This document shows, piece after piece, positions 1-33,553 of a stretch of 64,000 nt of DNA. The position numbers were made by a program, and so were the translations under genes. Below the pieces are notes generated by a model. The model did not search any database. It saw only the letters and a program-made list of their open reading frames with translations, and had not been told where the DNA came from. The DNA is from Roseimaritima multifibrata. GTDB taxonomy: Bacteria > Planctomycetota > Planctomycetia > Pirellulales > Pirellulaceae. The stretch is from positions 558,001 to 622,000 of the forward strand of contig NZ_CP036262.1 in NCBI RefSeq assembly GCF_007741495.1. The letters run 5' to 3'. The stretch's first letter is position 1, and the number at the start of each line of letters is the position of its first letter.

Positions 1-439
1 CGAATTCTAGCTGAGCAAGCATCTTTGGTGACCCAATGCCCGGCAGTGCAATGGGCAATGGAGTAAAAGGGAGGAGCGGGTCTTCGGTGTTGTCGCCGAC
101 CGTGATCGTGCTTCCGCCACCGCCTACCAAGGTTGCGGGCCAGGTATTGAGGAAGTTCGCACTGCGACCAGAAAAGACGTAGTCCCCGTTGGTGAGAAAA
201 TCTTCGCTCTGCGGATCCGTAAACACGACCCCGCCGCCGGTAATGTTCAGGCCGTAAAAATAGGAATCCAGCTCGTCGGATGAGTCACTGTAGATCAGCA
301 GATTCAGCACGCCACTGTCACCGACCTCATAGCTGGCCGCGGACGGAGTGGCGGTAATCATGATAGCGGCATTTGCGGATCTGGCTCCGCAGAGCATCAG
401 CAGGATTATCGTTAATAAAAATAGGGTTCTGGAATTCAT
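1..439 (-). CDS. Secreted protein, N-terminal part only (runs off left edge)
   Basis: Reading the minus strand from the ATG at 439 gives an open frame to the window edge with no stop. It starts MNSRTLFLLTIILLMLCGA followed by ANA, a clear signal peptide of about 25 residues. The mature part, about 120 residues visible, is beta-rich and Gly/Ser/Thr-rich, contains a VGDSGVLNLLIYSDSSDELD stretch, and resembles the planctomycete secreted proteins that usually end in a PEP-CTERM or similar tag; the C-terminus needed to check that is outside the window. An AAAGGA Shine-Dalgarno lies at about 463-468 on the minus strand, somewhat far from the ATG. It follows the giant gene at 492-10655 on the same strand by 52 bp, so it may be the last known member of that transcription unit. 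Family not recognised. Confidence 0.6.
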   Translation of the reverse strand, partial: MNSRTLFLLTIILLMLCGARSANAAIMITATPSAASYEVGDSGVLNLLIYSDSSDELDSYFYGLNITGGGVVFTDPQSEDFLTNGDYVFSGRSANFLNTWPATLVGGGGSTITVGDNTEDPLLPFTPLPIALPGIGSPKMLAQLEF

Positions 440-491
440 CGGTTTCTCGATTGGGTTGAAAGATCAAAGGAAAGTGTTTGTGGAAGGAACA

Positions 492-3400
492 TCAAGGGGT
501 GTCGTCGCCATCGGTGAGTAATCCATCCTTGAGTTTCTTGCCAAACGCTCGACTGACCAAAGCCAAGTCGGCACTATTGATCACTCCGTCTCCGTTTACA
601 TCCGAATCTGGATTCTGATTTCGCAGTGACGACATGACGGCCATCCGGTCGGCGATGTCCACCTTGCGGTCGCCGTTCAGGTCACCAAGCATGCGGTAGA
701 ACGATTGAACCGTTTCGAATTCACCGTCACCGTCTGCATCGATACCGATCTGGTAGTAGCCATCTCCGGCGTTGGAATTACGATTGCCTCCCAGGCCTTC
801 TGCGCCAAAGTCGAAGCTCAACGCGTTTCCGGATGCACTTAACTCGAATGCGGATCCGGCCATCAGCGAGCCGTTTTCGCCGTTGAGGTCATACTTCATG
901 ATCTGCACTCGGTCAGAATCGGCGAGAATTTCATCCAGGCCGTCATCGCTGCCGAACAAAATGTCCAGGTCGCGAATGTAGGACCGTTGAGTCATCCCGT
1001 TCTGCACCTCGATCGCGTCGGCGGTGTTACCGACCTTGAAGAAGTAGGTGACATCTTCGCTGGCAACTACGTCGCCGTCGGCCAGTGTGCCGCTTGCCTG
1101 GAAAGTGATCCGATAGGTTCCCATTTCTGTGAAACCAAAGTTGACGTGAGTGTGGTTGCCTTCCAGCAACTCGATCAGGTCCGTTTCGGTGATACCATCT
1201 GACGTGGCCATGGCCACCGCGGGGGATCCGTCCAGGGCTGAAGTCCACATTGAAAAATGTCCGGGACCGCTGGCTGATTCCAGACGCAGCGTCAGTGAAC
1301 CATCCAGGAACGTACCGTCCTCGATCTCTTCCGTTCCCAGTCCAAGGAAAAGAAGGTCCGGGTTTTCAACGGCAGGCAGCACGAAGACCGATTCACCGGC
1401 ATCTGTTCCGATGAAATCGTATTCCGCACCAGCAGGGCGCTGGGCGATCGCATCCATGCCGACGTAGAGCAGTGCTTCGTCGGGATGATACTCGGCCTCG
1501 CTGTCATGGTCGTGGACGTGCAGATTCCATTCGGGATCTTCTTCGCCTTCTGCGTGGTCATCATGATCGTGATCATGCCCGTCATGATCGTCTTCGTCGT
1601 GGTCTTCCTCTTCATGGTCATGGGCTCCGATGGCGACGCCGATGTCCACGTGCCCTTCCGTTAGAACGGCCTCAAACTCCCGTTCGGCAGCCGCGCTGAT
1701 CAGAACGGTCCCTGTCGACGTTCGGCCTGTTCCGTCGTTCACCGAATAGGCAAAACTGTCGGACCCATCAAAAGCGTCGGACGGTGTGTACACAAACGAT
1801 CCGTCCGGAGCGAAGCTGAGGTTCCCCTTCAACACCGTTGTCCCCAGTTCCGCGACCAGAACATCTCCATCCGGGTCCGAGTCGTTGAACAGCACATTGC
1901 CGTGGACCGCGTTGCCACGCCCGACGACGTAGGAGTCGTCGACGGTGACGGGGGCATCGTGTTCCGGTGTGACTTCAATCGTCACGGTCGCGACGTTTCC
2001 AAAGAGACGGTTGTCATTGTCGGGTGACACAGGAGTGAGCAGGTAGGCCTGGGTGGCTCCATTGAGCTTGCCGTAACCAACAATGCTGCGTCCGTTGTTG
2101 ATTCCTTCTCCGATCAGGAGCGTCCAGTCGTCGTTGTCGATCAACTCATTCAGGTCGATCATGGCCGTTTCTTCTCCGGCCAACTCACCTAAAACGGCGG
2201 CGCCGCCGAATGTCGGGTAGTTGTAGAATCCAGCCACGTAGCCGACGAATTGATCCGTCGCGTTGATGTCTTTGAGTTCACTATGGCTATAGCTCAAATA
2301 GTCCAGTGTCCCAACATCGATCATGTGCCCATCGTGATAGATGAAACCATGGTACAGGCTGGTGGAGCTGGTTGGCGAAACGGTTCCTACCACCGAAGCT
2401 CCCACTGCATTGCCGGAATCATTCACGGCATAGGTGTAGCTGTAATTGTGTTCATCCATGAGGGCTCCCATGTCGACCACGGTATAGCTATCGTCAGCTT
2501 GGCGTTCCCACAACGTTGCATGCGACAGGAACTCCGCATCATCGGCGCGGGTGACACCAACAATGAACTGACCTTCAGGACTGATTCCCCACGCTCTGCC
2601 ACTGGAAGCGGCGTTGCCAGCAATCGTTGGCAGTTCCAGCATCGCTCCGTCGACATAGACAAACGGTTTGGTTGCCGTTCCGTTGCTGCTGCTGCCGACG
2701 ATCTGGTTGAGATTGTTGATGTCGCTTGCGACGGCAGAGGTTCCGCCAAGCGTTCCAAGATTCGCGATGATACCGTTTTCCCAGCGGAAGGCCTTGGAAG
2801 CATTGTTGTCACTTTCACCAACCACAACGCCCAGGTCGTTGATCGCGTATCCGCGACTGAAGTTGTTGCTGCCGGTTCCTGCTACCACGCCTAGGTCTTC
2901 CAATCCGCCGTCCGTCCAACGGAAGGCGTGAAGTGGATTGCTGGCCCCAACGACGATGCCGGAATTGCCGCTGACCTGGTTGAGGTTGTTGACGTCCAGG
3001 GCGTAGCTGGTGGTGCCGCCGAGCGTACCAAGTGGTGTCACCTGATACCGTACGTCGGTCGTGGTGTAGGTGAAGGTGTCGCTGCCATGAAAGTTCGGAT
3101 CTGGCGTATATGTAAACGAACCGTCTGGATTGAGCGTCAGCGAACCATTCTCCGGTCCGGAAACGACCGCCGTTTTCAAAGTGTCGCCATTTGCGTCGGT
3201 ATCATTATCCAGTACTCCCGGGCCGGGCACCGTCAGGGTCCCGTCTTCGACGACCGCATAGGAGTCATCATTGGCGACAGGGGACTGATTATCGGCCGCA
3301 ATCGGGTACGGCTGCGGTCCCTCGGATGGGTCGATACTGAAGTAATAGGTGACGATGCCGCTTTCGGTGTAGCGATCGACTCCTTCGTCAAAGGTTCCGT

Positions 3401-6400
3401 TGGCGTTTCGATCCAAGAACGCGCTGGCAAATACGTCCACCTCGTAGATCCCGGGCTTGGTGAACGCCCAGTTGAGGTGGTTGTGGCTGCCGGCTTGAAT
3501 AAAGACACCGTCCTGGTCGGTGATGCCATCGCTCGTCGCGATCCACGCGTTCGGTCCCTCGAGTTCCGAGGAATAGACGCTGAACTGTCCGCCTTCGGGG
3601 CCACGCATGTCGACCAGTTGCAGCTCAACCCATGGTGCGGTTGCGTCAACGCGTGGATCGTCGCTGTGGTAGCTGGCGAGCGTCCCCGTGGCAATGCCCG
3701 AGCCACCGATGCCCAAGTCGGGGATGGTTGGAGGCACGTTGGATTGCGGCAGGACATAGATGTCCGATCCCGCCTCAGCCCCCAGGAAGTCAAACTCCGG
3801 ATCGGAGGGAGCCGTCACCTGACTGTCGGGGCCGCCGACAATCAAGACCTCATCGGCCTCAAACGGACCATCCAATGCATCGGGATTGATGTCAAGGTTC
3901 CACACGCGGTCGGCATAAGCGACGCGGATGTCGCCGTGCCCTTCGGTATAGAAGTTCGTAATTTCGCGAGCCGGACGACGATGGATCGAGAAGACCTCGC
4001 CACCAAAGAAGTCCTCGACAAGCGGATTGCCCTCTCCGTCTTCGATCGTGGCTGTGTCAAGCACTTCCAGTCCGATCGTACCGCTTCCGGTGCCGGTCGA
4101 GACCGTCACCATGTACTCGTCGCCTGATCCGCTCACGCCGGTGATTACCGCTCCGCTTACCTCGTCAAGGGTGAGACCAAAATCCTCGGTGTCGACATCG
4201 GTAACCGCTTCGCTGAACGTCACCTGGAACGTCAACTCAGCGGCCGCCGTCGGGTTTATCGTGGACGCCCGCTCGACCGTTTGGACAAAAGGCGCCGATC
4301 CATTGACCAGCACGCCGGACAGATCGACCGCTGGCAGCGTCAAGTCGACCGGATTGCCGAACGGGCCGAGGATCGAGCCGCCATTTAGATGGATCGAGCT
4401 CCCGACCAATTCAATACCGTCATTGTCAGCGTCCGTCGGTACAACCGTGTAGCGGAACAGCAGCGTCGTCGTGCCGCTGCCCGATAGGTAGGTCGCCTCG
4501 ACGTCTTGGTCCCCGACCTGCAGCGTCACACTGGGTGTCCCGGTCACCGTCACTGGGATTCCCAAGTGGATCGACAGGTCCAAGTTTTGGCCCGCTGGGT
4601 AGGTCCGAGAGATTGGCGGCTGTACGGTGGTGGCGAATTCTCCAAGCCTATTTGGAATGACGAAGACCTCGCCGCGAGCCAATGCGGCAGCCACCACGTC
4701 GGGATCGCCATCACCATCGGTGTCGGCGGTCGCGATGCCGTTGACCTGTCCGACTTCACGCGTGATCTCCATCGGGTCGCTGAAGTTGCCGCCGCCAAAA
4801 TTTTGAAGCCAGACGACGGGGCCACCATACGAACCGATCAGGACATCAAAGTCCCCGTCCTGATCAAAGTCTGCCGAGGTGGCGGCGTAGGGCGTACTCA
4901 CACTAGGCAACGCAGTGAATGGCCCGACTGTTCCGTCCGACTGACCGGGATGGAAACCGATGTCCAAGGAGTTGAGACCGACCACCAGAAGGTCGTCAAT
5001 GCCATCCCCGTTCAGGTCGTCGGCGGCGTAAACGACCGCTCCTGATGTCGAAGCGACCGTTTGCTTCGCTCCAAACGTGCCGCCGCCCTCATTGACGAAG
5101 TATGCGAGTTGGCCCGCCCCGGATTCGCCAGTGATGGCCTCAGGAAGACCGTCCCCGTTTAGGTCGCGGGCCACGAATCCAGCCGCCTCGTTCAAGCCGG
5201 TGGCGATGACGTTGCGCGAGCCGAACACGCCATCCCCTTCGTTGCGATACCAGTAGATGTCTCCGCCCATGTCTCGCGCGACGAGCACATCCAATTTTCC
5301 GTCCCCGTCAACATCGGCCGATCGGATGAACGGCCCATACAGGTCCGTGCCGATCGACTGAGCCGGGCCGAAGCTTCCGCCTAGATTTTCGTGCCAAACC
5401 AAATCGCCGAAGTATCCACCCACGATGACGTCCGGGTCGCCGTCGGCATCCAGATCGGCGAGATGAGCTTCCCATGGATAGCCCGCCGCAGCGGACACGA
5501 TTTGTTCCGGTCCATAGGTTCCGTCACCGAGGTTCTCGAACCAGACAACCTTGTCTGCCCCGAGCGATGCTGTCAAAACGTCGACGTGACCATCCCCATT
5601 GATGTCGGCAAGCTCCGGTTCAAAGACGTAATCTAAACCCGAGCCTAGCGAGTCCGGTAAACCAAATGGCACCACGTTTTTTGTAGTGATTGTCAAATTG
5701 AACGTGGTGCTGGTTTGTAGCCCACCGCCATCGGTGACCGTCACGGTGATGGTTGCGGTATCGGTTGGATCCGCAGTCGGTGTGATGGTGAGCGTCCGAT
5801 TGTCTCCGCTGCCACCAAGCACGATATTTTCATTGGGAACGACGTTGGTGTTCGACGAGGTCACCGTGACGCTCAACGCTTCGGCCGCGGTTTCAGCATC
5901 GCCGATGATCAATGGAATCGCACCGGTGGAACCTTCTTCCGTGACATGTTGATCTTCAATCACCGCAATTGTGGGAGCAATGTTCACTGGATCCACCGTT
6001 ACATCGACGGTCGCCGTGGCGATCCCACCGTGTTCGTCGGTGACGGTGTAGGTGAAGCTGTCGTTGCCGTAGAAGTCGGGATCGGGAGTGTAGGAGAGCG
6101 ATTTCCCATCGGCGGCAATTCCGACGGTACCATGCGAGGCCGCACTGGTTGACGTAATCAACAGGCTCTCGAAACCGTCGGGGTTTGACGAATCATTGGC
6201 AAGCACGTCGATTGCGAAATCGATGCTGTCTTCCGGCAACGTGGCTGCATCATCCTGCAATGCGGGCGAGTTCTCGCTACGCGAGGCATCGCCCGAGATC
6301 GTATCGACAGCAACATGGAAGGTTGTCTCGGGGCTTGTCACAAATTGGCCGTCAATACGGACGGTGGTTTGGAAAGTCAATGCGTAATTGCCAGGCTCGG

Positions 6401-9400
6401 TGAAAAACCATGCTGGGTGCGAGTGGCTATTCGAAAGAGTCCAGTACGTATCGCTCGCGTTCCCGCCGCTCGCGGTGTCGTCAGCGGAATTCAGCCCATC
6501 GAATGTATCGAAGGCTACATCACCGCCTTGAAATACCGTGGCATGCCCAGGACCCGAGAAGCCGACAAGTTGAATGGCCATCCATTCGTAATTGCCCGTC
6601 GCGCGAGCATCCCCAATCGGTGTGTAGCTGTCGATTCCGCTGGTGCTTTCGGTCGCAAATCCCAGAAACAATTTGTCTCCGCTGGCGCTGGTGGGGCCGT
6701 ACCAAATGTCGGCACCCGCTGGAACGCCCAGAACGTCGTAGAAGGCGTCATTCGGACGCGCGAGCTTCGTCGACGGATCGATAAACAGGACGCCTTCATC
6801 CGAATCAATGATTGTCGGACTATAGGTTCCGCTTTGCACCGATCCCACGATGCTCGCCCCCGTGCGGATGCGTTGGATCCATTCGCCCTCGATGTAGTCA
6901 AAGTCCATGTCGACGTGTTGGGACGCGGTCGCGGAATCGACAACCACGTAGCCGCCGATTTTGACGTACGCGATTCCCGTAAAGGAATATCCGTTGAACT
7001 CATCATCTGACGAGATCGTTACGGTGTAAGTGAATTGGTCGCTGGCAGCCGTTAGGTTCGTCGGGGTGTAACGCAGCAACTCGCCATCGGAGTCGATCTC
7101 GAGCGTTCCGTGAGCTGGACTTGATACGCTTGTTATTTCAAAGCGGTGACCGTCCATCGGCGTGACGTCGTTGGCCAGCACGTCTAACGTGCTGGTGGTG
7201 CCCGGGATGGCGAGCAGATTATTGTCCGCCACCGCTCGTGGGTTGACGCGGACGTTGAACGTCTGCGGTTCGGGAACGCCGGTTCCGGTGAAGCCCAAGG
7301 TCACCGTTGAGCTTCCATATCGGCCCGCGCTGGTGCTGAGATCGCTTGGTCGGATTCTCAATGTCCGATCGGAACCGCCCGAACTAGGGCGAGTTCGTAG
7401 ATCGCTGCTGGAACTGGTGCTGGGAGTGTTGAACAACGTCGTATTGCTGCGGCTAACCGTCGTCACCCAGGTTGGGTCGGCAACCGAATAGTTCAACGTG
7501 AACGCATCGTCCGCCGTTAACACGACGTCCGGGATGGCGTCCGGAATTGCGATGGCATTTTCCGAAGAGGTGGCTCCCACGAAGACGGCGAAGTCTCGCG
7601 TGATCGAAGCCCCATTTGCATCGGTCAGCGTAAGGTAAACCCGAGCGGTTCCTGACACGCCGGCAAGCGGCGACAGCGTGATGCTCCGTTCCGACCCGCT
7701 GCCCGCCAACAGGATTCCACTGTCGGGAAGCAGGGCGGGATTGTTGGAAACCGCCGAAACCACCAAGGCTGCGGAATCGGTTTCCGCGTCGGAAACCGTA
7801 AAGAAAATTGGTGCCGTAGAGGTGCCCATGGTCGTGGATTGGCTGGGAATTCCCGTACTAATGAATCCCGATTCCAGCTCTCTGGTAATGGCTGGCGTGT
7901 CGTTGATTGTCAACACGCTGGTCGCCTGAGCCCCAATCGTTCCCAAAGTTCCCGACAGAACTAGGCTGAACGTCTCATTAGCCTCGTCCAGTGAATTGTC
8001 GCCCAGCTGAACGGTAATAACTTTGGAGGTTTCCCCAGGGCCGAATACCAGCGTCCCTGAGGAGGCGACATAGTCATCGCTGCCTGCCGTCGCCGTGCCA
8101 TCGACGGTTTCGTAGTTGACCACAAGTGATCCCTGGGAACCGCCTGTGCGCTGGACCTTCACCGTTTGATATCCGGCTTGCTCGTTGACAAGCGTCGCCG
8201 CCGATTCAAACTCGACAACTCCCTGTCCCACCAAGACATCGAACGTCTCCGTCGCTGTCAAGGTTCCATCGCTAACCGTTAGCGTGATGGTTGTGCTGCC
8301 GGTTTGGTTTTCCGCTGGGGCGATCGTTACCGTTCGGTTCGTACCGCTGCCACCGAGCACGATATTCGCATTAGGTACAAGCGTGGTGTCGGACGACGTG
8401 GCCGTCACGCTCAGATCGCCAGCGGCGGTTTCCAGGTCACCGATAGTGAACGCAATCGCTGCCGTCGGGGTACCTTCATCGGTCGCTTGGGTTTCGATAG
8501 GCGAGATCGTCGGTCGATCGTTCACCCCACCCACCGTCAACGCGAACGTCTCCGTCGCTGTCAAGGCTCCATCGCTCACCGTCAGCGTGATGACTGTGCT
8601 TCCGGTTTGATTTTCGGCGGGGGTGATCGTTACCGTCCGGTTCGCATCGCTGCCGCCGAGGAGAATGTTCGCGTTGGGCACAAGCGTGGTGTCGGACGAG
8701 GTGGCCGTCACGGTTAAATCACCAACCGTGGTTTCGAGGTCGCCGATGGTGAACGCGATCGCACCGGTCTCCAGATCTTCGCTTGTCGATTGATTCGCAA
8801 CGCTGGAGATCGTCGGGGCGTCGTTGACGCTATCGACGGTCAGCAAAAAGTTGTCGGTCGCTGTCAGTCCCTCTTGATCGGTTACCGTGATCGTGATCGT
8901 GGTGGTTCCGAATTGATTCGGAGCTGGCGTGATCGTCGCTGTGCGATTGGCGCCACTGCCGGCGAATACGATGTTTCCCTCGGGAACCAACGCCGAATTG
9001 GAGGAGGTGGCGGTCACCGCGAGATCGCCGACCTCGGTTTCCGGATCGCCAACAACAAACCCGATGGCTGCGGTTGCGACGTCTTCATTGGTTGTTTGAT
9101 TGCTGATATCCGAAAGGGTCGGGGCGGAGTTCACCGGACTCACCTCCACGATAAACGTCTCCGTGGTGGTCCCTCCATCGCCGTCGGTGACCGCCACGGT
9201 GATCGTGGTCAGTCCGGCCTGATCGGCGGCCGGAGTGACCATCAGTGTTCGGTTTGTACCGCTGCCGCCAAGCACCAGATTTGCGTCGGGAACAACGGCT
9301 TGGTTGGAAGAGGTCGCGGTGACGGTCAATTCAGTCGCTGCTGTTTCGGCGTCGCCGACCGTAAATGTTAGATTCGGCGTTGAGCTATTTTCTGCCACCA

Positions 9401-10655
9401 CCTGATCCTCCACGTCTGAGATCGTCGGTGGCGAGTTGATTGGTTGATCGTTGTCAACGATGGTGACGATCGTCGATCCATTTGTGCCAATCAGACCGTT
9501 GGCATCCAGTTCAACCTCGCGGATGTAGCCGTCCAGGTTGCCGGGCGACGGTGAGGTAAGCACGACGTTAAAGGTTTCATTACCTTCAACGAGCAAGTCC
9601 TCGAGGATCGGAATGGTGATCGTTTGGCGAGTCTCTCCATCAAGAAACTCAAGCGACCCCGCGGCCGTCGTGTAATCACTGCCGGACGTTGCCGTACCAC
9701 TGGTGGTTGCGTAGTTCGCGCCAATCCGACCGTCGCTTCCTCCGATGCGGACGACATCGATCGACGCGGTGCCCGCATCTTCGCTCACCGAATAGCTGGA
9801 CGCGTCAAACTGCAGTTGCCCAACGCTGCTTATCGAGAAGTAAAGCGTGATGTTGTCGCTCTGACTGAACCCATCCTCATTGGGCGTTTCAGCAAGACTG
9901 TCATCGCCGAAATAGGCCGATAGTTTGACATCGACCTCATAACGCCCGGGGTCGGTAAAACCAAAGCTGAAATGGGAATGGCCGCCGTTAAGAATCCACA
10001 TCGCGTCGTCGGTGGAGATCCCATCGGTCACATCCAGCCCGTTCGCATCGGGGTTGACCACGCCGTCGTCGTAAGATGACATGGCCACCACCGCACCCCC
10101 AAACGATCCGGATTGCCACATCGAGAAGTGCCCGTCTCCGTCGGTTCCGTCTGGGTTCGTATGACGCACTTCGGAAAGAGTGGCTTTGACGTACCGACCG
10201 CTACCGGAAACCCGCCCCTTTGACTCGGTGGTGGGACTGTAGCGGTCGACCGAACCTTCTACCCCATAGGAAGCAAAACCGAGATACAGCGATTCAGGAT
10301 TCTGTGACTGAGGCATCAGGTAGAAATCCTGCCCCGGATCGACGCCAATAAAGTCATATTCTGAGCTGGCTGGCCGTGGGAAAACCGATTTTTCGCCAGC
10401 ATACAGAACCGCTTGATTGTTGTCGTATTGAACCGGTGGGTCGCCGTCGGAATTTTTGGCGCCAAGGGACCACTCGGAGCCCGACCGCTGAATGTTCAAA
10501 TCCACATGCTCAGTCGTCACAAAGCTGACCAGTTCAGCGGTCAGCAGTCGCCGCTGTTCCAGTGCCTCCACACGACACCTGTGCTTGGCTCGCGCACGGC
10601 GATTCTTCGCGGCTGTTTGTTGACGACGTTTGGATTTGCGGAATGAAGGGAACAT
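492..10655 (-). CDS. Giant LEPR-XLL surface protein with four choice-of-anchor-M domains, HAF repeats and dockerin
   Basis: 3,387 residues from the ATG at 10655. This start is chosen because it puts the basic N-terminus and the LEPR-XLL motif (VEALEQRRLL, residues 29-38) first; the open frame extends 130 codons further but over the DUF1559 gene. Order of domains: choice-of-anchor-M (TIGR03769-like) 1 at residues 45-275; Calx-beta; four tandem Ig/cadherin-like repeats of about 100 residues (nt 9435-8235); second Calx-beta; further Ig/cadherin-like modules; anchor-M 2 (nt ~6945-6290); cadherin-like modules; a seven-bladed FG-GAP/VCBS propeller with DxNGDG calcium loops (nt ~5680-4635); Big-like modules; anchor-M 3 (nt ~3968-3325); a cadherin-like domain interrupted by a HAF-repeat domain (nt ~3052-1995); anchor-M 4 with a His/Asp-rich loop (nt ~1685-1025); C-terminal dockerin type I pair (nt ~690-530). 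Each anchor-M domain ends in an H-x-H plus FT motif. It is probably a secreted, calcium-stabilised cell-surface protein. Anchor-M domains in actinobacteria accompany metal ABC transporters, and the COG0523 and MerC neighbours point to zinc (inference). Confidence 0.9.
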   Translation of the reverse strand: MFPSFRKSKRRQQTAAKNRRARAKHRCRVEALEQRRLLTAELVSFVTTEHVDLNIQRSGSEWSLGAKNSDGDPPVQYDNNQAVLYAGEKSVFPRPASSEYDFIGVDPGQDFYLMPQSQNPESLYLGFASYGVEGSVDRYSPTTESKGRVSGSGRYVKATLSEVRHTNPDGTDGDGHFSMWQSGSFGGAVVAMSSYDDGVVNPDANGLDVTDGISTDDAMWILNGGHSHFSFGFTDPGRYEVDVKLSAYFGDDSLAETPNEDGFSQSDNITLYFSISSVGQLQFDASSYSVSEDAGTASIDVVRIGGSDGRIGANYATTSGTATSGSDYTTAAGSLEFLDGETRQTITIPILEDLLVEGNETFNVVLTSPSPGNLDGYIREVELDANGLIGTNGSTIVTIVDNDQPINSPPTISDVEDQVVAENSSTPNLTFTVGDAETAATELTVTATSSNQAVVPDANLVLGGSGTNRTLMVTPAADQAGLTTITVAVTDGDGGTTTETFIVEVSPVNSAPTLSDISNQTTNEDVATAAIGFVVGDPETEVGDLAVTATSSNSALVPEGNIVFAGSGANRTATITPAPNQFGTTTITITVTDQEGLTATDNFLLTVDSVNDAPTISSVANQSTSEDLETGAIAFTIGDLETTVGDLTVTATSSDTTLVPNANILLGGSDANRTVTITPAENQTGSTVITLTVSDGALTATETFALTVGGVNDRPTISPIETQATDEGTPTAAIAFTIGDLETAAGDLSVTATSSDTTLVPNANIVLGGSGTNRTVTIAPAENQTGSTTITLTVSDGTLTATETFDVLVGQGVVEFESAATLVNEQAGYQTVKVQRTGGSQGSLVVNYETVDGTATAGSDDYVASSGTLVFGPGETSKVITVQLGDNSLDEANETFSLVLSGTLGTIGAQATSVLTINDTPAITRELESGFISTGIPSQSTTMGTSTAPIFFTVSDAETDSAALVVSAVSNNPALLPDSGILLAGSGSERSITLSPLAGVSGTARVYLTLTDANGASITRDFAVFVGATSSENAIAIPDAIPDVVLTADDAFTLNYSVADPTWVTTVSRSNTTLFNTPSTSSSSDLRTRPSSGGSDRTLRIRPSDLSTSAGRYGSSTVTLGFTGTGVPEPQTFNVRVNPRAVADNNLLAIPGTTSTLDVLANDVTPMDGHRFEITSVSSPAHGTLEIDSDGELLRYTPTNLTAASDQFTYTVTISSDDEFNGYSFTGIAYVKIGGYVVVDSATASQHVDMDFDYIEGEWIQRIRTGASIVGSVQSGTYSPTIIDSDEGVLFIDPSTKLARPNDAFYDVLGVPAGADIWYGPTSASGDKLFLGFATESTSGIDSYTPIGDARATGNYEWMAIQLVGFSGPGHATVFQGGDVAFDTFDGLNSADDTASGGNASDTYWTLSNSHSHPAWFFTEPGNYALTFQTTVRIDGQFVTSPETTFHVAVDTISGDASRSENSPALQDDAATLPEDSIDFAIDVLANDSSNPDGFESLLITSTSAASHGTVGIAADGKSLSYTPDPDFYGNDSFTYTVTDEHGGIATATVDVTVDPVNIAPTIAVIEDQHVTEEGSTGAIPLIIGDAETAAEALSVTVTSSNTNVVPNENIVLGGSGDNRTLTITPTADPTDTATITVTVTDGGGLQTSTTFNLTITTKNVVPFGLPDSLGSGLDYVFEPELADINGDGHVDVLTASLGADKVVWFENLGDGTYGPEQIVSAAAGYPWEAHLADLDADGDPDVIVGGYFGDLVWHENLGGSFGPAQSIGTDLYGPFIRSADVDGDGKLDVLVARDMGGDIYWYRNEGDGVFGSRNVIATGLNEAAGFVARDLNGDGLPEAITGESGAGQLAYFVNEGGGTFGAKQTVASTSGAVVYAADDLNGDGIDDLLVVGLNSLDIGFHPGQSDGTVGPFTALPSVSTPYAATSADFDQDGDFDVLIGSYGGPVVWLQNFGGGNFSDPMEITREVGQVNGIATADTDGDGDPDVVAAALARGEVFVIPNRLGEFATTVQPPISRTYPAGQNLDLSIHLGIPVTVTGTPSVTLQVGDQDVEATYLSGSGTTTLLFRYTVVPTDADNDGIELVGSSIHLNGGSILGPFGNPVDLTLPAVDLSGVLVNGSAPFVQTVERASTINPTAAAELTFQVTFSEAVTDVDTEDFGLTLDEVSGAVITGVSGSGDEYMVTVSTGTGSGTIGLEVLDTATIEDGEGNPLVEDFFGGEVFSIHRRPAREITNFYTEGHGDIRVAYADRVWNLDINPDALDGPFEADEVLIVGGPDSQVTAPSDPEFDFLGAEAGSDIYVLPQSNVPPTIPDLGIGGSGIATGTLASYHSDDPRVDATAPWVELQLVDMRGPEGGQFSVYSSELEGPNAWIATSDGITDQDGVFIQAGSHNHLNWAFTKPGIYEVDVFASAFLDRNANGTFDEGVDRYTESGIVTYYFSIDPSEGPQPYPIAADNQSPVANDDSYAVVEDGTLTVPGPGVLDNDTDANGDTLKTAVVSGPENGSLTLNPDGSFTYTPDPNFHGSDTFTYTTTDVRYQVTPLGTLGGTTSYALDVNNLNQVSGNSGIVVGASNPLHAFRWTDGGLEDLGVVAGTGSNNFSRGYAINDLGVVVGESDNNASKAFRWENGIIANLGTLGGTSAVASDINNLNQIVGSSSNGTATKPFVYVDGAMLELPTIAGNAASSGRAWGISPEGQFIVGVTRADDAEFLSHATLWERQADDSYTVVDMGALMDEHNYSYTYAVNDSGNAVGASVVGTVSPTSSTSLYHGFIYHDGHMIDVGTLDYLSYSHSELKDINATDQFVGYVAGFYNYPTFGGAAVLGELAGEETAMIDLNELIDNDDWTLLIGEGINNGRSIVGYGKLNGATQAYLLTPVSPDNDNRLFGNVATVTIEVTPEHDAPVTVDDSYVVGRGNAVHGNVLFNDSDPDGDVLVAELGTTVLKGNLSFAPDGSFVYTPSDAFDGSDSFAYSVNDGTGRTSTGTVLISAAAEREFEAVLTEGHVDIGVAIGAHDHEEEDHDEDDHDGHDHDHDDHAEGEEDPEWNLHVHDHDSEAEYHPDEALLYVGMDAIAQRPAGAEYDFIGTDAGESVFVLPAVENPDLLFLGLGTEEIEDGTFLDGSLTLRLESASGPGHFSMWTSALDGSPAVAMATSDGITETDLIELLEGNHTHVNFGFTEMGTYRITFQASGTLADGDVVASEDVTYFFKVGNTADAIEVQNGMTQRSYIRDLDILFGSDDGLDEILADSDRVQIMKYDLNGENGSLMAGSAFELSASGNALSFDFGAEGLGGNRNSNAGDGYYQIGIDADGDGEFETVQSFYRMLGDLNGDRKVDIADRMAVMSSLRNQNPDSDVNGDGVINSADLALVSRAFGKKLKDGLLTDGDDTP
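8235..9435 (-). repeat. Four tandem ~300-bp coding repeats (Ig/cadherin-like modules)
   Basis: Four consecutive modules of about 100 codons start near nt 9435, 9134, 8827 and 8527 of the giant gene. Each carries the series IS-x2-x-NQ, F-x-V/I-GD-x-ET, LTVTATSS, VP-x-N-I/L-V/L-x-GGS/GSG-x-NRT and TIT-x-TV-x-D. Modules three and four are the most alike, with long shared stretches such as TATSSDTTLVPNANI, indicating recent unit duplication inside the gene. Confidence 0.8.
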
Positions 10656-10675
10656 ATTGTTAATCCTGGGAAGAA

Positions 10676-11428
10676 CTATTTGACGACTGGGCAAAGATCT
10701 GGAAGAGCAAAGTTGATATTGGCTTCGGCCCACCCTTTGACGACTTGACAGGGGATCAATTCCACATGTCCATCGGCAAACAAGTAGTTGGCGTATCCGG
10801 TGCTGCGTTCGGCTGAGGGGCGGGGCTGGAGCGGGTCGCCGACACCTTGGAAACGATCCGCTTTCACGTCGGCAAGCACGCGAGCCCAATTGGTCGACTG
10901 GGGATAGCGAATCCAATTCCGTGAATGGGTGTGGTCTTCGGTGATTGCCGTACCACGCGAATCCGAGATAGTGAACACCATGATTGTGCGGTGCGTCGAC
11001 TTTAGGTGGTTGATCGACAAAGCCTGGTCCGGTCCAGCGACGCACAGGTACTCGTTGAAAATGTAGCTGGTGCCTTGGTTTTCACGACGCTCATCAATCC
11101 GTGGATCGACCGGGCAAAGCCGGATGCTGTCAACGTTTTCAAAATAGGGCGAAAGCGTGTAGATCCATGCACCTTCGATACCCGTATCATGGGTTGATTT
11201 GGGAAAGACGCCGCGATGGGTATCGCAAAAGGCATGGGTGGCGATCCCGATCTGACGCAAGTTGTTCGCATCGGTGACACGATCGGCTGCCTCGCGAGCT
11301 TTCTGAATGGCTGGCAGCAAAAGTGAAATAAGGATCGCGATCACGGTGATCACAACCAGCAACTCCACAGCTGTAAAGCCATGCCTCTGAATCAGAGCCG
11401 ATTTGCACAGCGTTGTGTTTTTGTGCAT
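10676..11428 (-). CDS. DUF1559-family protein with type IV prepilin-like N-terminus
   Basis: 250 residues from the ATG at 11428. A frame-extending ATG at 11458 lies inside a perfect 27-bp palindrome, so the inner start is preferred, although its Shine-Dalgarno (AAAAGAAA) is weak. After a short basic leader comes [20 protein letters not shown], the prepilin-peptidase/N-methylation motif and transmembrane helix (Gly-Phe junction, Glu at +5). The rest is a compact periplasmic domain ending in the DUF1559 hallmark FADGHVELI (H-x9-DG region). DUF1559 proteins are highly expanded in Planctomycetes and thought to be pseudopilin-like envelope proteins. The giant surface-protein gene follows 20 bp downstream, so the two are probably co-transcribed. 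An intrinsic terminator separates it from merC upstream, so it needs its own promoter. It is slightly shorter than the usual ~300 residues. Confidence 0.85.
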
Positions 11429-11447
11429 TTTTCTTTTGTGTAAAAAG

Positions 11448-11474
11448 TGCATTTGCATGGTGCATGCAAATGCA
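11448..11474. promoter_or_regulatory. Perfect palindromic operator in front of the DUF1559-giant unit
   Basis: Arms TGCATTTGCAT (11448-11458) and ATGCAAATGCA (11464-11474) are perfect inverted repeats around ggtgc. Within it sits TTGCA-N7-TGCAA, the same half-sites and spacing as in the dyad upstream of the COG0523 gene. It lies between the merC terminator and the DUF1559 start, where an operator overlapping a promoter would be expected. Operator function and identity of the regulator (a Zur/Fur-type protein is the obvious candidate) are inferred. Confidence 0.6.
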
Positions 11475-11499
11475 TTGGTTTGGGGAGGTAGCGGTCGCA

Positions 11500-11555
11500 G
11501 AAAAACTCTGAGCTGAATGCCTCACTGATCGTGAGGCATTGCCAATGCTCAGAGT
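11500..11555 (-). terminator. Intrinsic terminator after the MerC-like gene
   Basis: Nested stem-loop on the minus strand: outer arms at 11548-11555 and 11505-11512 (ACTCTGAG and complement), inner perfect 10-bp arms at 11531-11540 and 11516-11525 around a 5-nt loop, followed by a run of U (11504-11500). It begins 14 bp after the stop at 11570, so it ends the cobW-merC transcript. Confidence 0.8.
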
Positions 11556-11569
11556 CGTGCCTGTGAAAA

Positions 11570-12193
11570 CTATTGGTCAGTCGGTGTTTCGCAACATCCG
11601 CACGCACATCGATAACGATGGTTGAGCAGGTGGGCGGAAACCAATAGCATGCCGCCTATCGGTGTGATCCATGGAGTTAGCCCGGTTAGGTAAGTCGATG
11701 AAAAAAATGAGGCGGCGATGTGCGTGTTCTCACCGCTGAGCGTTTGTGTGTCAGTGTCGGTGACGGTGTCTGCGGCAGCGTGTTCACAGCAAGTATCGGT
11801 ACATGCCGCTACGGTCAGGTTGGTTGCTGCTGGCGACTCGCAAGCGACACAGCAATCGTCCGAGAACCCGAATGCGGCGACGGTGATCATCGACAATCCT
11901 GCGACGGCAATCGAGCCAGGCATCCAGCGTCGATGATGGCGAAATCCTGGTACAAAAGCAGCGATCGCAATCACGAAGCACGCGATAGCCATCACGCGAT
12001 GAAATCCCTCGTCGGCCAGAAAACTAACCCCAAACGCCGGCAAGAACGCGATCACGAACGGCATTGCTGCACAGTGAATCGCACAGCCGATTGACGCGAC
12101 GATGCCGACCCAGTCCTGCCAACGAGACATCGCCTCAGACTTCGACGCTGAGATGCGTGAAACGATCGAATTTGGTTCTATGGTTTCCAACAT
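11570..12193 (-). CDS. MerC-like integral membrane protein, Cys/His-rich
   Basis: 207 residues from the ATG at 12193, which overlaps the stop of the COG0523 gene (TAATG) and has a strong GAGGAGG eight bases upstream, so the two are translationally coupled. The first helices contain CAIHCAAMP, the MerC-type metal-binding motif in a membrane segment. There are four predicted transmembrane segments: about residues 28-50, 55-75, 85-105 and 165-185. A loop between the last two holds several Cys/His residues (DDCCVACES, CTDTCCEH), and the C-terminus ends in CACGCCETPTDQ. MerC proteins move mercury across the inner membrane, but many MerC-domain proteins lie next to COG0523 GTPases and are suspected of handling zinc. 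The coupling here supports a role in zinc uptake or transfer (inference). The Cys-rich loop and tail are longer than in classical MerC of about 140 residues. Confidence 0.82.
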   Translation of the reverse strand: MLETIEPNSIVSRISASKSEAMSRWQDWVGIVASIGCAIHCAAMPFVIAFLPAFGVSFLADEGFHRVMAIACFVIAIAAFVPGFRHHRRWMPGSIAVAGLSMITVAAFGFSDDCCVACESPAATNLTVAACTDTCCEHAAADTVTDTDTQTLSGENTHIAASFFSSTYLTGLTPWITPIGGMLLVSAHLLNHRYRCACGCCETPTDQ

Positions 12194-13443
12194 TACAAAA
12201 CCTCCTCTTCCACATGCTGTTCGGTGACTTCCACTTCGATAGGCGGAAACGTCGATTCCAGATTCGCCCAGTGTTCCGGTCCCTGTACATATTCCAGATC
12301 GGTCAGTAAGCAATCGTCGAGAATCTGGATGATTCGCTCCTGATTCATTGCGTTGCCGATGAACACTAATTCCTGATGCCGGTCGCCATGCTCACCGACG
12401 AACTTGGCTTGAATTTCTGCTATCGACTGGTCGTCTGCGGGCCACTGGTCGTCCGGTGCAGCGGCCCACCAGAGGCCGAGGGGAGCCATTCGAATGGAAC
12501 AACCGGCCTGCGACCAGTCGAATGCCCAGTCGTGGCGAGATGCGATCCACATCAAACCTTTGCTGCGTAATACTCCGGTGAACATGCCGGCTTCCATATC
12601 CGCGTCAAGCGCGTCCGTCAGGCGTTTGGGGTGAAACGGCCGCTCCCGCCGATAGACGAAATTCGATATTCCGTACTCTTCGGTTTCGGTCTCCTCTTCT
12701 CCACGCGGCACGGCACGCCATTCCGGTTGCGATTCAGCTTCGCTAAGCGAGAACAATCCGGTCCCCATAATTTCTGTCAAATCGACTCGGCTTTCGGTCG
12801 TGTTGAGGATTTTGGCGTTGGCGTTCAGTTGTCGTAGGATACGATTCAGTTGTTCCAGCTCATGCGGCGAAACCAAATCGGTTTTGTTAACGATGATCAC
12901 GTTTGCGAATTCGACCTGATCGACCAATAAGTCAACGATATTTCGCGTGTCCTCGTCATTGAGTCCCAATCGCCGGTCGGTAAGGTCGTCCCATGAACCA
13001 AAGTCCTTCATGAAGTTTCCGGCATCGACGACGGACACCATCGTGTCGAGCTCGGCGATCAGCGACAGACTCTGCCCTTCTTCGTCCTCGAATGTGAACG
13101 TTTCGGCAACGGGCATCGGTTCGGAGATGCCAGTTGATTCGATCAACAGATAGTCAAATCGCCCATCGCGAGCGAGTCTGCGGACTTCGACCAATAGGTC
13201 TTCTCGGAGTGTGCAGCAGATACATCCGTTGGACATCTCGACAAGCTGCTCTTCGGTGCGAGACAAGTTCGCATCTCCCGATTTAACGAGCGCCGCGTCG
13301 ATATTTACTTCGCTCATATCGTTGACGATTACGGCAACTTTTAGGTCATCTCGATTGGTCAAGATATGATTCAGCAGCGTGGTCTTTCCGGCGCCAAGGA
13401 AACCGGAAAGAACGGTGACGGGCAGGCGGTTGTGTTGATCCAT
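12193..13443 (-). CDS. COG0523 (CobW/ZagA-type) zinc metallochaperone GTPase
   Basis: 416 residues, ATG at 13443 with AAAAGG upstream. Walker [10 protein letters not shown] at residues 14-22, the family metal-binding CxCC in GCICC at 72-76, a switch/Walker B region with LLIESTG, and the guanine-specificity NKTD at 185-188. The CobW C-terminal domain begins near residue 260 and includes the [19 protein letters not shown] stretch typical of the longer YciC/ZagA/ZigA branch. This branch consists of GTP-dependent zinc metallochaperones usually induced by zinc starvation. It is the first gene of a unit coupled to a MerC-like gene and next to a surface protein with His-rich metal-binding-like segments. 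A 29-bp dyad 100-130 bp upstream is a likely operator. The CobW cobaltochelatase helper is an alternative, but no cobalamin genes are nearby. Confidence 0.9.
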
Positions 13444-13543
13444 GGAACCTTTTCGCGAGTGTGCGGGCGGCTAAGTGGGGAATGCGCACGGGGGCGTCGC
13501 CCGTGACCTCCCCCGCGTTTTTAATCCTCAACAGCCAATGCTA

Positions 13544-13572
13544 CTGTAGTTGCAAGTCGTGTGCAACTGCAG
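13544..13572. promoter_or_regulatory. Dyad operator upstream of the COG0523 gene
   Basis: Arms AGTTGCA (13548-13554) and TGCAACT (13562-13568) are perfect inverted repeats around seven bases. The symmetry continues outward as CTG/CAG (13544-13546 and 13570-13572) with one mismatch. The core TTGCA-N7-TGCAA recurs in the dyad at 11448-11474. The site is 100-130 bp upstream of the ATG at 13443. A Zur-type repressor is the natural guess given the genes controlled; this is inference. Confidence 0.6.
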
Positions 13573-14180
13573 GCGTTGGTTGTATGTGGGGTAGGGGAAA
13601 TCCCGCCCAGCTTGCTATTTCCGAGATCGCCAGTCATCGCAAACGCTGCCGGGCACGGATTTCCTAGCCGGGGAATGACTCGAGGATCGATTTGTCCTCT
13701 ATATCAAGCCACCTTTCAGCATCCGTTCCTGCTGCGCAATCAATCCCGGCGGCAGTCGGGACCACCCCCGAAAGGTCAATTTCAAATGGCAAGGAATCGA
13801 AAATGACGACGTCAGCCGCATGGGGCTGCGTGGCACTGAAGCAAACGGGCTTGCTTATGTCGCCAATTGAAGTCTCGCTGGCGGCGCACGACCGCTCGAG
13901 TCGCGCCGATTCCCGTGTATTCGGCTGCAGCAGCGAAGGCGAGGCATCGTTATTGGCTCGGCATGAAGAAACGAGCCGAACTTGAATTTCAACTACCGCG
14001 GCAACGGTGGCGACGAACCTTAATTGCGGGACGTCGCTACTCTGCATAATCTGCCACTGACGTTCAATATTGGCACGGAAATCGCAATACTGATTGATGC
14101 TGACTGGAGGCCGTGCCCACGTGAGATGGGGCGTTCATCTCGCGCGGTGAAACCACTCTTCAACTTGTGGAGACAGGACG
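13573..14180. other. Non-coding or undetermined stretch
   Basis: About 600 bp between the zinc-locus promoter and the next plus-strand gene. Two overlapping open frames of 97 and 127 codons on opposite strands (13692-13985 and 13664-14047) have no recognisable motif, no good ribosome-binding site and low-complexity composition, so I call neither. No riboswitch or tRNA was recognised. Confidence 0.5.
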
Positions 14181-20725: not shown

Positions 20726-21751
20726 TTAGAAGTGATACTCGACACGGGTTACGAAACCGTCGAATGTGAAGTCGTCACTGAGGTCACGGTAGTTGCCCGC
20801 GTTGTTTTGTACCGCTCCGATCCAATCCTCTGTTTTGACTGTTCCCATCCACGAGTTGAACATGTAGCCCGCCGTGACTCGCAGTCCACAGCAATGCTGC
20901 CAGCCTGCTCCGACTTCCAGATCGAGCATTGAAACCATGCGGCCTGCATCCCATCCGGAGGAAACTCGAATTGGGTCAACGTTGCTTGAGTGCAGGTAGG
21001 ACGCGTCGAATTTGCCAGCCAACAAGCTGGCGTTTGTTTTGCCGTAAAGGAATGTACCGCGGCGCAAGTGATGCTCGATGTCGGCACCCAAGCGAAGGCC
21101 GGCACCGTTGAATTCAATGTCGCTTGTCACGGTTTCCGTCAGGCCCGCGCCGGTATAGACAACGCTCAGGTCCTGATCCAAACGACCGTATCGAGCACCG
21201 ATCGTTAGGTTCGCTGCCGTGCACGCGTTTGACAAGACAATAAATCGATAGTCTAAATCGGCAAGCTGGAAGTCGATGTCGTAGCTGCCAGAAGCGGAGA
21301 GAACATTTGCGGCGGCATTCGCTTCGTTTGGATGAACCAGCAACTTGGCCAACGAAAGAGGAGCGTTCACATCGACTTGATCGGATTGGCTGCTGCTGTA
21401 ACCGGTGTAGGACAACGAGAAACTGCTGCAGTGGTCGAGTGCTTTGGTCAGTCCCACGCGAAAGCCTAGCTCGGCTTCTGGATCCAGAATTCCGACGTCG
21501 CCTTGGGGTACGTTGCCATTGACCGGCAAAGCGTAGGAGATTTCGGCGTCGCGGGCGCGAAGGACGAGCAGTTCGCCAAAGACGCCAGAGCGATGAGCCC
21601 AGGCGGGCGTTTGATAAACGGGCGAACCGCTATTGAAAGCTGCCGGTTGGACGGCCGAACCGTTCAGGTCCACCGGCTCGTTTGCTGCAGCCAAACCGCT
21701 GTTCAACGCGAGCAAACCGAACATCGCGCCGAAAAGTGCTTTGATTTTCAT
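20726..21751 (-). CDS. Lpg1974-family outer-membrane beta-barrel porin, copy 1
   Basis: 341 residues, ATG at 21751 with AGGAAAAATC upstream. Signal peptide to about residue 23 (SGLAAANE). The rest has alternating-hydrophobic strands with family landmarks GELLVLRARDAEISYALPV, GFRVGLTKALDH, DLDYRF, IGARYGRLDQDL, GAGLRLGADIEHHL, LYGKTNASLLAGKFDASYL and terminal VTRVEYHF ending in Phe, the BAM recognition signal. This is the Legionella_OMP/Lpg1974 family (PF05150), abundant in Planctomycetes, presumed pore-forming outer-membrane proteins. A CC pair in WQHCCGLRVTAGYMFNSWMG is conserved in the second copy. Divergent from the giant exoprotein gene at 22385; nearly the same gene pair is repeated at 32519/33937. 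Confidence 0.9.
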   Translation of the reverse strand: MKIKALFGAMFGLLALNSGLAAANEPVDLNGSAVQPAAFNSGSPVYQTPAWAHRSGVFGELLVLRARDAEISYALPVNGNVPQGDVGILDPEAELGFRVGLTKALDHCSSFSLSYTGYSSSQSDQVDVNAPLSLAKLLVHPNEANAAANVLSASGSYDIDFQLADLDYRFIVLSNACTAANLTIGARYGRLDQDLSVVYTGAGLTETVTSDIEFNGAGLRLGADIEHHLRRGTFLYGKTNASLLAGKFDASYLHSSNVDPIRVSSGWDAGRMVSMLDLEVGAGWQHCCGLRVTAGYMFNSWMGTVKTEDWIGAVQNNAGNYRDLSDDFTFDGFVTRVEYHF

Positions 21752-22081: not shown

Positions 22082-22384
22082 AATTTAATAAAACGATTTA
22101 AAAGACTAGCTTTTGCAAATCCCGCACTTTACTATGCCTTCCCGGGTTGCCTGTATTGCGTAGTCCGCGAGCGGGGCATGTGGGCACGCCAGGTTTCACT
22201 TTGAAGACTCGAACGGACGCTAAAGTCCGCGCATCTATTTACCGCATCAGCACCAGTGTCGTCTCTGCGAGCGTGCTCGCACCATCACGACTGCACCTGT
22301 TTCCTCGAATAATCCCACCTTCACATCAAGAGCAGCGTCTCAACAAGCGGCCTATCCGCTTCCAGCCCGTTGAGGAACATCGCC
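22082..22384. other. 5' region of giant gene 1
   Basis: About 300 bp without a gene. The first part is AT-rich (TTTAATAAAACGATTTAAAAG at 22084-22104) and is the likeliest promoter. An AGGA at 22373-22376 serves the ATG at 22385. Further upstream, the porin 1 5' region holds an inverted repeat CACGGTT/AACCGTG (21844-21850, 21870-21876) of unknown role. Confidence 0.4.
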
Positions 22385-32518: not shown

Positions 32519-33553
32519 TTAGAAGCGGTACTCGAAGCGAGTCACGAAACCGTCAAACGTGAAGTCATCACTGAGATCACGGTAGTTGCCCGCGTTGTTT
32601 TGTACGGCTCCGATCCAATCCTCTGTCTTGACGGTTCCCATCCACGAGTTGAACATGTAGCCCGCCGTGACTCGCAGTCCACAGCAATGCTGCCAGCCTG
32701 CTCCGACTTCCAGATCGAGCATTGAAACCATGCGGCCTGCATCCCATCCGGAAGAAACTCGAATCGGGTCAACGTTGCTTGAGTGCAGGTAGGAAGCGTC
32801 GAATTTGCCAGCCAGCAAGCTGGCGTTTGTTTTGCCGTAAAGGAACGTACCGCGGCGCAAGTGATGCTCGATGTCGGCACCCAAGCGAAGACCGGCACCG
32901 TTGAATTCGATGTCGGTTGTCACGGTTTCGGTCAATCCCGCGCCTGTATAGACAACGCTCATGTCTTGATCTAAACGACCATATCGGGCACCGATCGTGA
33001 AGTTCGCCGCGGTGCACGCGTTTGATAAGACGACAAATCGATAATCCAAATCGGCAAGCTGGAAATCGATGTCGTAGCTTCCAAAGGCTGTCGGAACATT
33101 GGCGGCGGCATTCAATTCGTTCGGATGAACCAACAGCTTGGCAAGCGAAAAGGGAGCGTTCACATCGACTCGATCGGATTGGTTGCTGCTGTAGCCCGTG
33201 TAAGCCAACGAGAAACTGCTGCGGTGATCCAGTGCCTTGGTCAACCCAACGCGAAACCCTAGGTCGGCTTCTGGGTCCAGAATCCCCACGTCGCCTTGGG
33301 GTACGTTGCCATTGACCGGCAAAGCGTAGGAGATTTCGGCGTCACGGGCGCGAAGGACTAACAGTTCACCGTACAGACCGCTGCGGTGTGCCCACGGTGG
33401 ACTGCATGAAACGGGCGCGCACTCTTCGTACGCTAAATGACTCTGCTGCTGGATAAGTGGCTGATCCAACGCGGCTGGGGATTCCGCGGAGGCGGAAACG
33501 CAGGTGGTTATTAGAAAGCCAAGCAGCACTCCATGGCGAATATTGTTGGTCAT
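32519..33553 (-). CDS. Lpg1974-family outer-membrane beta-barrel porin, copy 2
   Basis: 344 residues, ATG at 33553. From WAHRSG (about residue 53) onward the protein is almost identical to copy 1 (20726-21751), including LDYRF, IGARYGRLDQD, CCGLRVTAGYMFNSWMG and the terminal Phe, here VTRFEYRF. The first 50 residues are unrelated in sequence: a different signal peptide (VLLGFLITTCVSASAE) and a Cys-containing segment (EECAPVSCSPP). So the signal region was replaced or has diverged freely while the barrel has been kept homogeneous. It diverges from giant gene 2 at 33937 as copy 1 does from giant gene 1. Same presumed function: outer-membrane pore. Confidence 0.9.
   Translation of the reverse strand: MTNNIRHGVLLGFLITTCVSASAESPAALDQPLIQQQSHLAYEECAPVSCSPPWAHRSGLYGELLVLRARDAEISYALPVNGNVPQGDVGILDPEADLGFRVGLTKALDHRSSFSLAYTGYSSNQSDRVDVNAPFSLAKLLVHPNELNAAANVPTAFGSYDIDFQLADLDYRFVVLSNACTAANFTIGARYGRLDQDMSVVYTGAGLTETVTTDIEFNGAGLRLGADIEHHLRRGTFLYGKTNASLLAGKFDASYLHSSNVDPIRVSSGWDAGRMVSMLDLEVGAGWQHCCGLRVTAGYMFNSWMGTVKTEDWIGAVQNNAGNYRDLSDDFTFDGFVTRFEYRF

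Follow-up and report, generated by a model that had tools for sequence, protein, structure and literature searches.

What could link a GTPase, a membrane protein with a mercury-resistance name, a pilin-like protein and a very large surface protein on one strand of a planctomycete chromosome? The question is raised by a stretch of Roseimaritima multifibrata DNA of 64,000 nucleotides, hereafter the window (positions 558001-622000 of a single contig of 7,216,590 bases, which is what the genome-wide searches covered), in which genes for a COG0523 GTPase, a MerC-domain protein, a DUF1559 pseudopilin and a giant protein with four choice-of-anchor M (anchor-M) domains follow one another. An earlier note had taken the four for one zinc-scavenging or zinc-binding system without a published description. 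Judged from comparisons across genomes, the locus is probably part of a zinc-starvation regulon of Planctomycetota and Verrucomicrobiota, and this zinc reading gains support from an operator found at both transcription units, from families that recur together, from a Fur-family neighbour and from clusters that include ZnuABC-like genes.

Two transcription units and a palindrome

Profile searches and open reading frame (ORF) coordinates place all four genes on the minus strand, where they had been reported. The first unit consists of the GTPase gene (12193-13443), whose product carries NGCICC, and the MerC-domain gene (11570-12193), whose product carries CAIHC, with TAATG as the stop-start overlap between them; 3' of the latter, on the same strand, lies a predicted terminator hairpin at 11488-11560 (-33.9 kcal/mol, z -5.8, equalled by 0 of 200 shuffles). 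The second unit consists of the DUF1559 gene (10676-11428) and the gene of the giant protein (492-10655; 3387 amino acids, aa). The DUF1559 ORF is listed from 11458, and since that ATG falls within a palindrome at 11448-11474, a start at 11428 is likelier. The coupling of the GTPase and MerC-like genes, the terminator between the units, the pseudopilin-like protein and the giant with H-x-H in each of its anchor-M domains had all been claimed in the earlier note and are borne out by sequence, folding and family profiles; two matching operators, a His/Asp-rich stretch, a C-terminal dockerin and a PEP-CTERM-type neighbour come in addition.

The palindrome at 11448-11474, 5' of the DUF1559 gene, is perfect (TGCATTTGCATG-CAC-CATGCAAATGCA, a 12-bp inverted repeat with a 3-bp spacer), and a sister site, TGCAGTTGCACACGACTTGCAACTACA, lies at 13545-13571, about 100 bp 5' of the GTPase gene, with the structure TGCAGTTGCA-CACGACT-TGCAACTACA; both are unstranded features from pattern searches. 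A joint operator pattern matches the window twice against 0.01 expected matches, and with at most one mismatch to the 27-bp palindrome these two sites are the only ones in the whole 7.2-Mb genome. With at most three mismatches, 10 sites turn up in the genome, where the reversed pattern gives 8; the eight sites besides these two all have three. A looser pattern with at most two mismatches gives 4 against 1 reversed, and the two sites outside the window have two. In Allorhodopirellula solitaria, TGCA-N2-TGCA-N7-TGCA-N2-TGCA lies over the listed start of the DUF1559-giant unit, with 0 mismatches and 0 expected matches.

Could the palindromes be terminators, or chance, with no common regulator behind them? 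The one at 11448-11474 runs into CTTTTT and receives a terminator-like score, but a strong terminator already stands immediately upstream of it, the GTPase-side operator has no T run, and the A. solitaria site retains the dyad, again without a T run and with its upstream gene on the opposite strand. A role as terminator only is disfavoured by the upstream terminator and the A. solitaria dyad, and with operator matches exceeding reversed controls in three locus sets (one of which, the first matrix scan, counts its own training regions) terminators or chance would be an extremely improbable explanation.

The matrix was obtained by palindromic expectation maximisation, seeded with the window motif, on 53 upstream regions of GTPase genes (at least 300 bits against the window GTPase; window included), and its core, TTGCAA-N5-TTGCAA, scored 263.6 against 96.5, 111.5 and 106.9 in three shuffles. 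Sixteen bits are reached in 18 of the 53 regions, two of the 18 being one site fetched twice. At 20 bits or more, the loci fetched by anchor-M hold 9 sites against 0 in the reversed sequence (980,558 bases) and those fetched by DUF1559 hold 22 against 0 (1,222,476 bases); a box also stands upstream of 18 of 63 pseudopilin genes with a D-H-T-H motif, against 1 of 63 reversed. Boxes precede GTPase genes, DUF1559 genes and MerC genes (the last in loci L317 and L320, both above the Pfam cut-off), lie between a small anchor-M gene and the GTPase gene in L113, and adjoin Fur-family genes: a conserved operator at several genes, as a Zur regulon should have, is present. A NicO-like gene and a box are about 270 bp apart in L103 and about 1.2 kb apart in L318, and a further box of R. 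multifibrata itself (C1:554375-554397, or 9376-9398 of L021; 19.4 bits), about 3.6 kb past the low edge of the window, precedes an ORF of 584 aa without a family match and then a gene for a NicO/DsbD_2-like membrane protein (L021 11788-12495). Searching whole genomes with model R1 does not yield the full regulon, since 150 of the 311 to 3303 candidates in each genome were scored, and the 11448 site was missed.

Boxes were also seen in other settings. At 3941-5244 of L320, one separates a MerC-domain gene from a divergently oriented gene whose product is a His-rich lipoprotein-like protein, and others lie 5' of DUF1559 genes of about 320 aa (L085 768, L093 850, L310 4807, L311 4871); L085 and L093, the two of these four loci covered by the anchor-M scan, gave no anchor-M match.

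Recurrence of the gene families

The window GTPase (416 aa) belongs to the COG0523/CobW group of G3E GTPases, with 193.2 bits for cobW and 85 bits for CobW_C, both above cut-off, and with NGCICC as its CxCC motif. Against the NCBIfam model ZigA (NF038288) it scores 593.6 bits, the next-best model giving 178; this is 6.4 below the curated cut-off of 600, which is surpassed in 26 of 148 class genomes, and the protein is for this reason called ZigA-like and not ZigA. The MerC-domain protein (207 aa) has 82.6 bits for PF03203, whose cut-off is 27.6. The mercury-resistance name of PF03203 might suggest a protein of mercury or toxic-metal resistance, brought into this neighbourhood by accident, but the scores against the NCBIfam MerC equivalogs are far under their cut-offs (20.6 against 170, 16.9 against 140), on which ground a mercury-resistance role was rejected, and MerC-domain genes, all above the Pfam cut-off, repeatedly accompany the box or DUF1559/anchor-M units (L103, L262, L263, L271, L298, L307, L317 and L320). 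Resistance with an accidental neighbourhood is thus very improbable.

A separate observation concerns an oxidoreductase of the Pyr_redox_3 family with a Cys-rich tail (CCGEEC), encoded after the GTPase region in L103 (9640-10821) and L111 (10654-11790), in two families; the L103 protein was scanned by Pfam and the L111 one by NCBIfam, where the nearest model, YpdA, stays below cut-off.

How closely do the other families keep together? Of 397 class genomes 60 have anchor-M, and of 199 phylum genomes 7. In 51 of 67 anchor-M loci a DUF1559 gene is found no more than 1 kb away, against 3 of 43 control loci (Fisher p 2e-13), the controls being GTPase-anchored loci without anchor-M, from which L081, L111 and L113 were excluded since they hold it; within 300 bp the count is 42 of 67. 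Outside the 67 stand L069, L070 and L071, with weaker anchor-M matches, and the anchor-M genomes G414, G545, G314 and G257 are not among the fetched loci. A GTPase of at least 350 bits accompanies anchor-M in nine of the 67, window included. Around 136 anchor-M loci, a number that contains duplicates, the most frequent clusters after anchor-M itself were DUF1559 in 98, an unassigned mixed cluster in 15, a GTPase in 14, an ABC-type (ATP-binding cassette) cluster in 12 and a fused spermine-synthase-like protein in 12; a number of planctomycete records occur in both L169-L228 and L229-L308 under different names (L113 = L233, L176 = L230 and L211 = L235, for instance), and several loci lie on short contigs. 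Seen from the pseudopilin, 63 loci have D-H-[TS]-H on the expected strand, and anchor-M is present in 61 of these, in 57 within 300 bp, against 4 of 17 other loci (Fisher p 7e-10). It is DUF1559 with anchor-M that forms the steady unit, the GTPase and the MerC-domain protein being movable parts of the same proposed regulon.

The same families are found together in further genera and phyla, and in L298 (Cerasicoccus frondis) all four are above cut-off within 20 kb, but the exact order GTPase-MerC-DUF1559-anchor-M occurs in no other fetched locus. The conserved neighbourhood for which the earlier note proposed a search is therefore found for the families and not for the four-gene order, and its idea of one system is supported in part, by the operator, the recurring families, the nearby Fur gene and the ZnuABC-like genes. 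The near relative A. solitaria keeps DUF1559 and the giant, and neither a GTPase nor a MerC match turns up in its fetched 20.7-kb stretch; L244 combines two Fur genes with GTPase, DUF1559 and anchor-M, its MerC candidate being below the Pfam cut-off; L307 has DUF1559, MerC and GTPase without anchor-M. An accidental neighbourhood was rejected on the pairing counts and the operator controls.

A link with zinc import is seen in two verrucomicrobial loci, L262 and L263, where Fur, HisI-like and COG0523 genes lie on one side of a box; on the other, the operon of DUF1559 and anchor-M continues into MerC and ZnuABC-like genes, the latter for a binding protein of ZnuA type, an ATPase of ABC type and an ABC-3 permease. 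A second COG0523 gene also belongs to these clusters (the L262 ATPase and the L263 permease were scanned, their counterparts being assigned by position and N-terminus). HisI-like, COG0523 and Fur genes stand side by side in L262, L263 and L307, and L272 has a ZnuA-type gene of 195 bits.

The spermine-synthase-like protein mentioned above has about 850 aa, a Spermine_synth domain and the character of a membrane protein; it is encoded near anchor-M genes in 12 of the 136 loci and in two phyla: L065 (6718-9297) and L262 (17451-20027), the two scanned, with 71.8 and 60.3 bits, and L068, L179, L185, L198, L200, L210, L217, L244, L268 and L298. As a speculation, it could make a polyamine-like metal carrier.

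The regulator and its metal

All 16 genomes tested contain one or more Fur-family genes. A second Fur type adjoins box and GTPase in L103, L088 and L106 and lies near DUF1559 or anchor-M genes in L187, L188, L244, L262, L263 and L307; the stretches fetched for Fur genes contain boxes in L157, L159, L163 and L168. In a tree of 47 rows, the R. multifibrata gene C1:5417512 (5417512-5417820) falls into a group of 12 (support 97/91) that includes L103, L088, L187, L188, L244 (both genes), L262, L263 and L307, with L106 and L159 just outside it, in a wider and weakly supported group. The second Fur gene of the same genome, C1:6017175, is placed elsewhere, and other Fur-family genes near the unit (L069, L271, L272, L274, L278 and L284, L274 on the far side) have long or separate branches. 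Against nine rows of the same type the C1:5417512 protein shows 53-64% identity, and against the other Fur of its genome 23%. In several genomes, then, the operator has beside it a Fur-family protein of a separate type, which we infer to be Zur; no Zur model matches the C1:5417512 protein and solved Fur proteins match the profile of its group better than FurB does, so that the label rests on genomic company.

Several results weigh against a zinc regulon so constituted. No NCBIfam model names the C1:5417512 protein Zur (at E 0.01), the profile of the linked Fur group is matched better by solved iron-type Fur proteins than by FurB, and no box is found around C1:5417512. Nor is there a box at the ZnuA loci of 19 Planctomycetia genomes, R. 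multifibrata included (0 of 27 at 14 bits; the reversed sequences of these 27 loci give two matches at 14.5 bits), nor a promoter-like site in 10400-14000. Boxes are lacking in 35 of the 53 GTPase upstream regions (at 16 bits) and at 45 of the 63 D-H-T-H genes, the four-gene order is not repeated in the other fetched loci, and the PEP-CTERM-type neighbour of the giant gives no cohesin match (Pfam at E 0.05; solved structures). The fit to iron-type Fur, the boxless ZnuA loci in Planctomycetia and the NicO-like genes near boxes would suit a regulon whose signal is manganese, iron, nickel or copper and whose regulator is a Fur, Mur or Nur, not a Zur. This is distinctly improbable in view of the GTPase, closest by far to the ZigA model, of the pairing of a HisI-like paralogue with COG0523, by which Zur regulons of proteobacteria have been recognised in the literature (PMC2770081, in the part used here), and of anchored-repeat proteins with a GTP-binding protein under Zur in Corynebacterium diphtheriae (PMC6711530, likewise in part).

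The Zur regulon of C. diphtheriae is the closest published parallel. As far as the part of PMC6711530 drawn on here goes, it comprises the anchored-repeat cluster troA-dip0445, CmrA, CmrA2 and Zrg, a set induced together on low zinc or zur deletion, and it shares with the present loci large surface proteins and a GTP-binding protein, alongside anchored-repeat ABC transporter proteins there. It differs in being Gram-positive and sortase-anchored, and that part of the paper names no DUF1559 pseudopilin or MerC-domain protein. In the portion of Haas et al. (2009, PMC2770081) considered, a Zur site governs a COG0523 GTPase, which is in some cases joined by a HisI paralogue; this resembles L262, L263 and L307 with their COG0523 and HisI-like genes; these Zur regulons, by contrast, have no anchor-M or DUF1559 partner there. 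The main text of Haas et al., to the same extent, names neither Planctomycetes, Verrucomicrobia nor Rhodopirellula, and that of a Zur review (PMC6103462), also in the portion considered, is without Planctomyc- or Verrucomicrob-.

In the open-access literature searched, no publication was found on a Zur regulon in Planctomycetota or Verrucomicrobiota, none joining DUF1559 with zinc, and none joining Zur, Planctomycetes, zinc and COG0523. The absence of any description of the set, as stated at the outset, thus holds for these phyla in that literature, but an actinobacterial analogue under Zur has been published (PMC6711530, in the part cited). If the zinc reading is right, Planctomycetota and Verrucomicrobiota would have a concrete metal operator and a candidate regulator, one recognisable subset of the numerous DUF1559 proteins would have a likely role, and choice-of-anchor M domains would stand in a zinc setting outside Actinobacteria.

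Surface proteins and possible zinc capture

In the zinc-starvation regulon proposed here, a zinc-loaded Fur-family regulator (putative Zur) would repress both units, and zinc shortage would switch both on. The ZigA-like GTPase of the first unit would hand zinc to client enzymes and the MerC-domain protein would move metal across the inner membrane; the giant of the second unit would bind zinc at the surface through its four His-bearing anchor-M domains and a stretch with 11 His, its dockerin and the PEP-CTERM-type neighbour possibly keeping it in place, and the pseudopilin would either aid export of the giant by a type II-like system or relay metal from it. What do the surface proteins themselves say of such a role?

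Besides Ig/cadherin-like, Calx-beta and FG-GAP repeats, the giant has anchor-M domains encoded at 9903-10520, 6306-6926, 3420-3950 and 1032-1571 (minus strand; profile searches), with H-x-H at residues 226, 1411, 2391 and 3168, one per domain. It scores 341.4 bits over four stretches against choice-of-anchor M (NF038134; cut-off 55), and the four TIGR03769 matches that the genome gives at E 0.001, three of them above cut-off, all fall within it, whereas it stays below the equivalog cut-offs of TIGR03773 (156.2 against 190.3 bits) and TIGR03772 (104.5 against 350.5). The TroA-type products of C. diphtheriae presumably belong to these last two families, which are next to anchor-M. A His/Asp-rich stretch (about 1540-1625, minus strand) opens the fourth domain, with 11 His in 52 residues from residue 2998. 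In 119 anchor-M domains, the H of G-H-x-D is conserved in 96% and its D in 98%, and the two His of H-x-H in 96 and 93%. A beta-strand model was predicted with a pLDDT (predicted local distance difference test) of 89 for a construct from residue 3015 that lacks its own GHVD and is incomplete; the model had one match among structures (E 7.3e-4, template modelling score 0.29), and a profile search of anchor-M against solved structures had none.

The pseudopilin has 40.8 bits for PF07596 and 24.2 for N_methyl, both above cut-off, and falls short of the H-X9-DG motif model (TIGR04294; 16.5 against 19 bits); its nearest named relative, at 87% identity, is from Rhodopirellula (now Allorhodopirellula) solitaria CA85. 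Among 16 short-type rows paired with giants, picked by hidden Markov model type and not by motif and hence giving the fair figure, H80 and D165-H166-T167-H168 are present in all 16 and H221 in 15, L113 having Arg; five long-type rows are without D-H-T-H. In a larger set of 52 rows, D-H-T-H is universal by construction, the rows having been picked by motif and the loci by DHTHSRNW or YL[FY][AV]DGHV, so that H80, invariant in 52 of 52, is the one unselected position. A scan of 84,980 species genomes with the two patterns gave 269 relatives, the best 80 of which are from Planctomycetota, Verrucomicrobiota, Fimbriimonadaceae (Armatimonadota) and Kiritimatiellae. The AlphaFold2 model (pLDDT 92) combines a long helix at the N-terminus with a compact globular part; the latter gives 36 matches in the PDB at E up to 10 and none at 0.001, and profile matches to solved structures cover the N-terminal pilin helix. 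Rhodopirellula baltica has 74 DUF1559 genes according to PMC2754498, whose planctomycete proteins share the Pfam family and the pilin-like N-terminus of the window protein; the D-H-T-H subfamily, its pairing with anchor-M and the operator are absent from the portion of that paper considered, and the word zinc does not occur in its text.

Two readings of the surface set can be set side by side. In one, the zinc regulon is the same and its surface proteins do not capture metal: DUF1559, as a dedicated pseudopilin, would export the giant, an adhesin or matrix protein produced under zinc shortage, and the histidines would be structural. This agrees with the adjoining genes, with the pilin-type N-terminus and with the many Ig/cadherin-like and FG-GAP repeats and dockerin of the giant, but less well with the conservation of H80, D-H-T-H and mostly H221 in the pseudopilin, with the H-x-H and G-H-x-D kept in anchor-M or with the ZnuABC-like genes in the clusters of L262 and L263, and we regard it as possible, if unlikely. 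In the other, a His metal site in DHTHSRNW pseudopilins would carry zinc from the giants to the periplasm, with import by MerC or ZnuABC, distribution by the GTPase and control through the new Zur operator, wherever such pseudopilins are encoded with anchor-M proteins in Planctomycetota, Verrucomicrobiota and Armatimonadota. Such a zinc-capture pseudopilus is suggested tentatively and is fairly unlikely as a whole; if true, cells whose envelope is unusual would be using pilus-type machinery to take up metal.

At its C-terminus the giant has a type I dockerin (546-689, minus strand; PF00404, 28.1 bits, cut-off 22.9), and 3' of it on the same strand lies the gene of the PEP-CTERM-type protein (2-439, the first 146 of 220 aa), relatives of which likewise follow giants in L081, L176, L183, L184 and L185; dockerin and neighbour together suggest attachment to the surface. 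Two more giants are encoded in the window, at 22370-32350 (3326 aa) and 33937-41748 (2603 aa), ending in type I dockerins of 50.6 and 51.9 bits, and each adjoins a Legionella_OMP-like gene (20726-21751 and 32519-33553).

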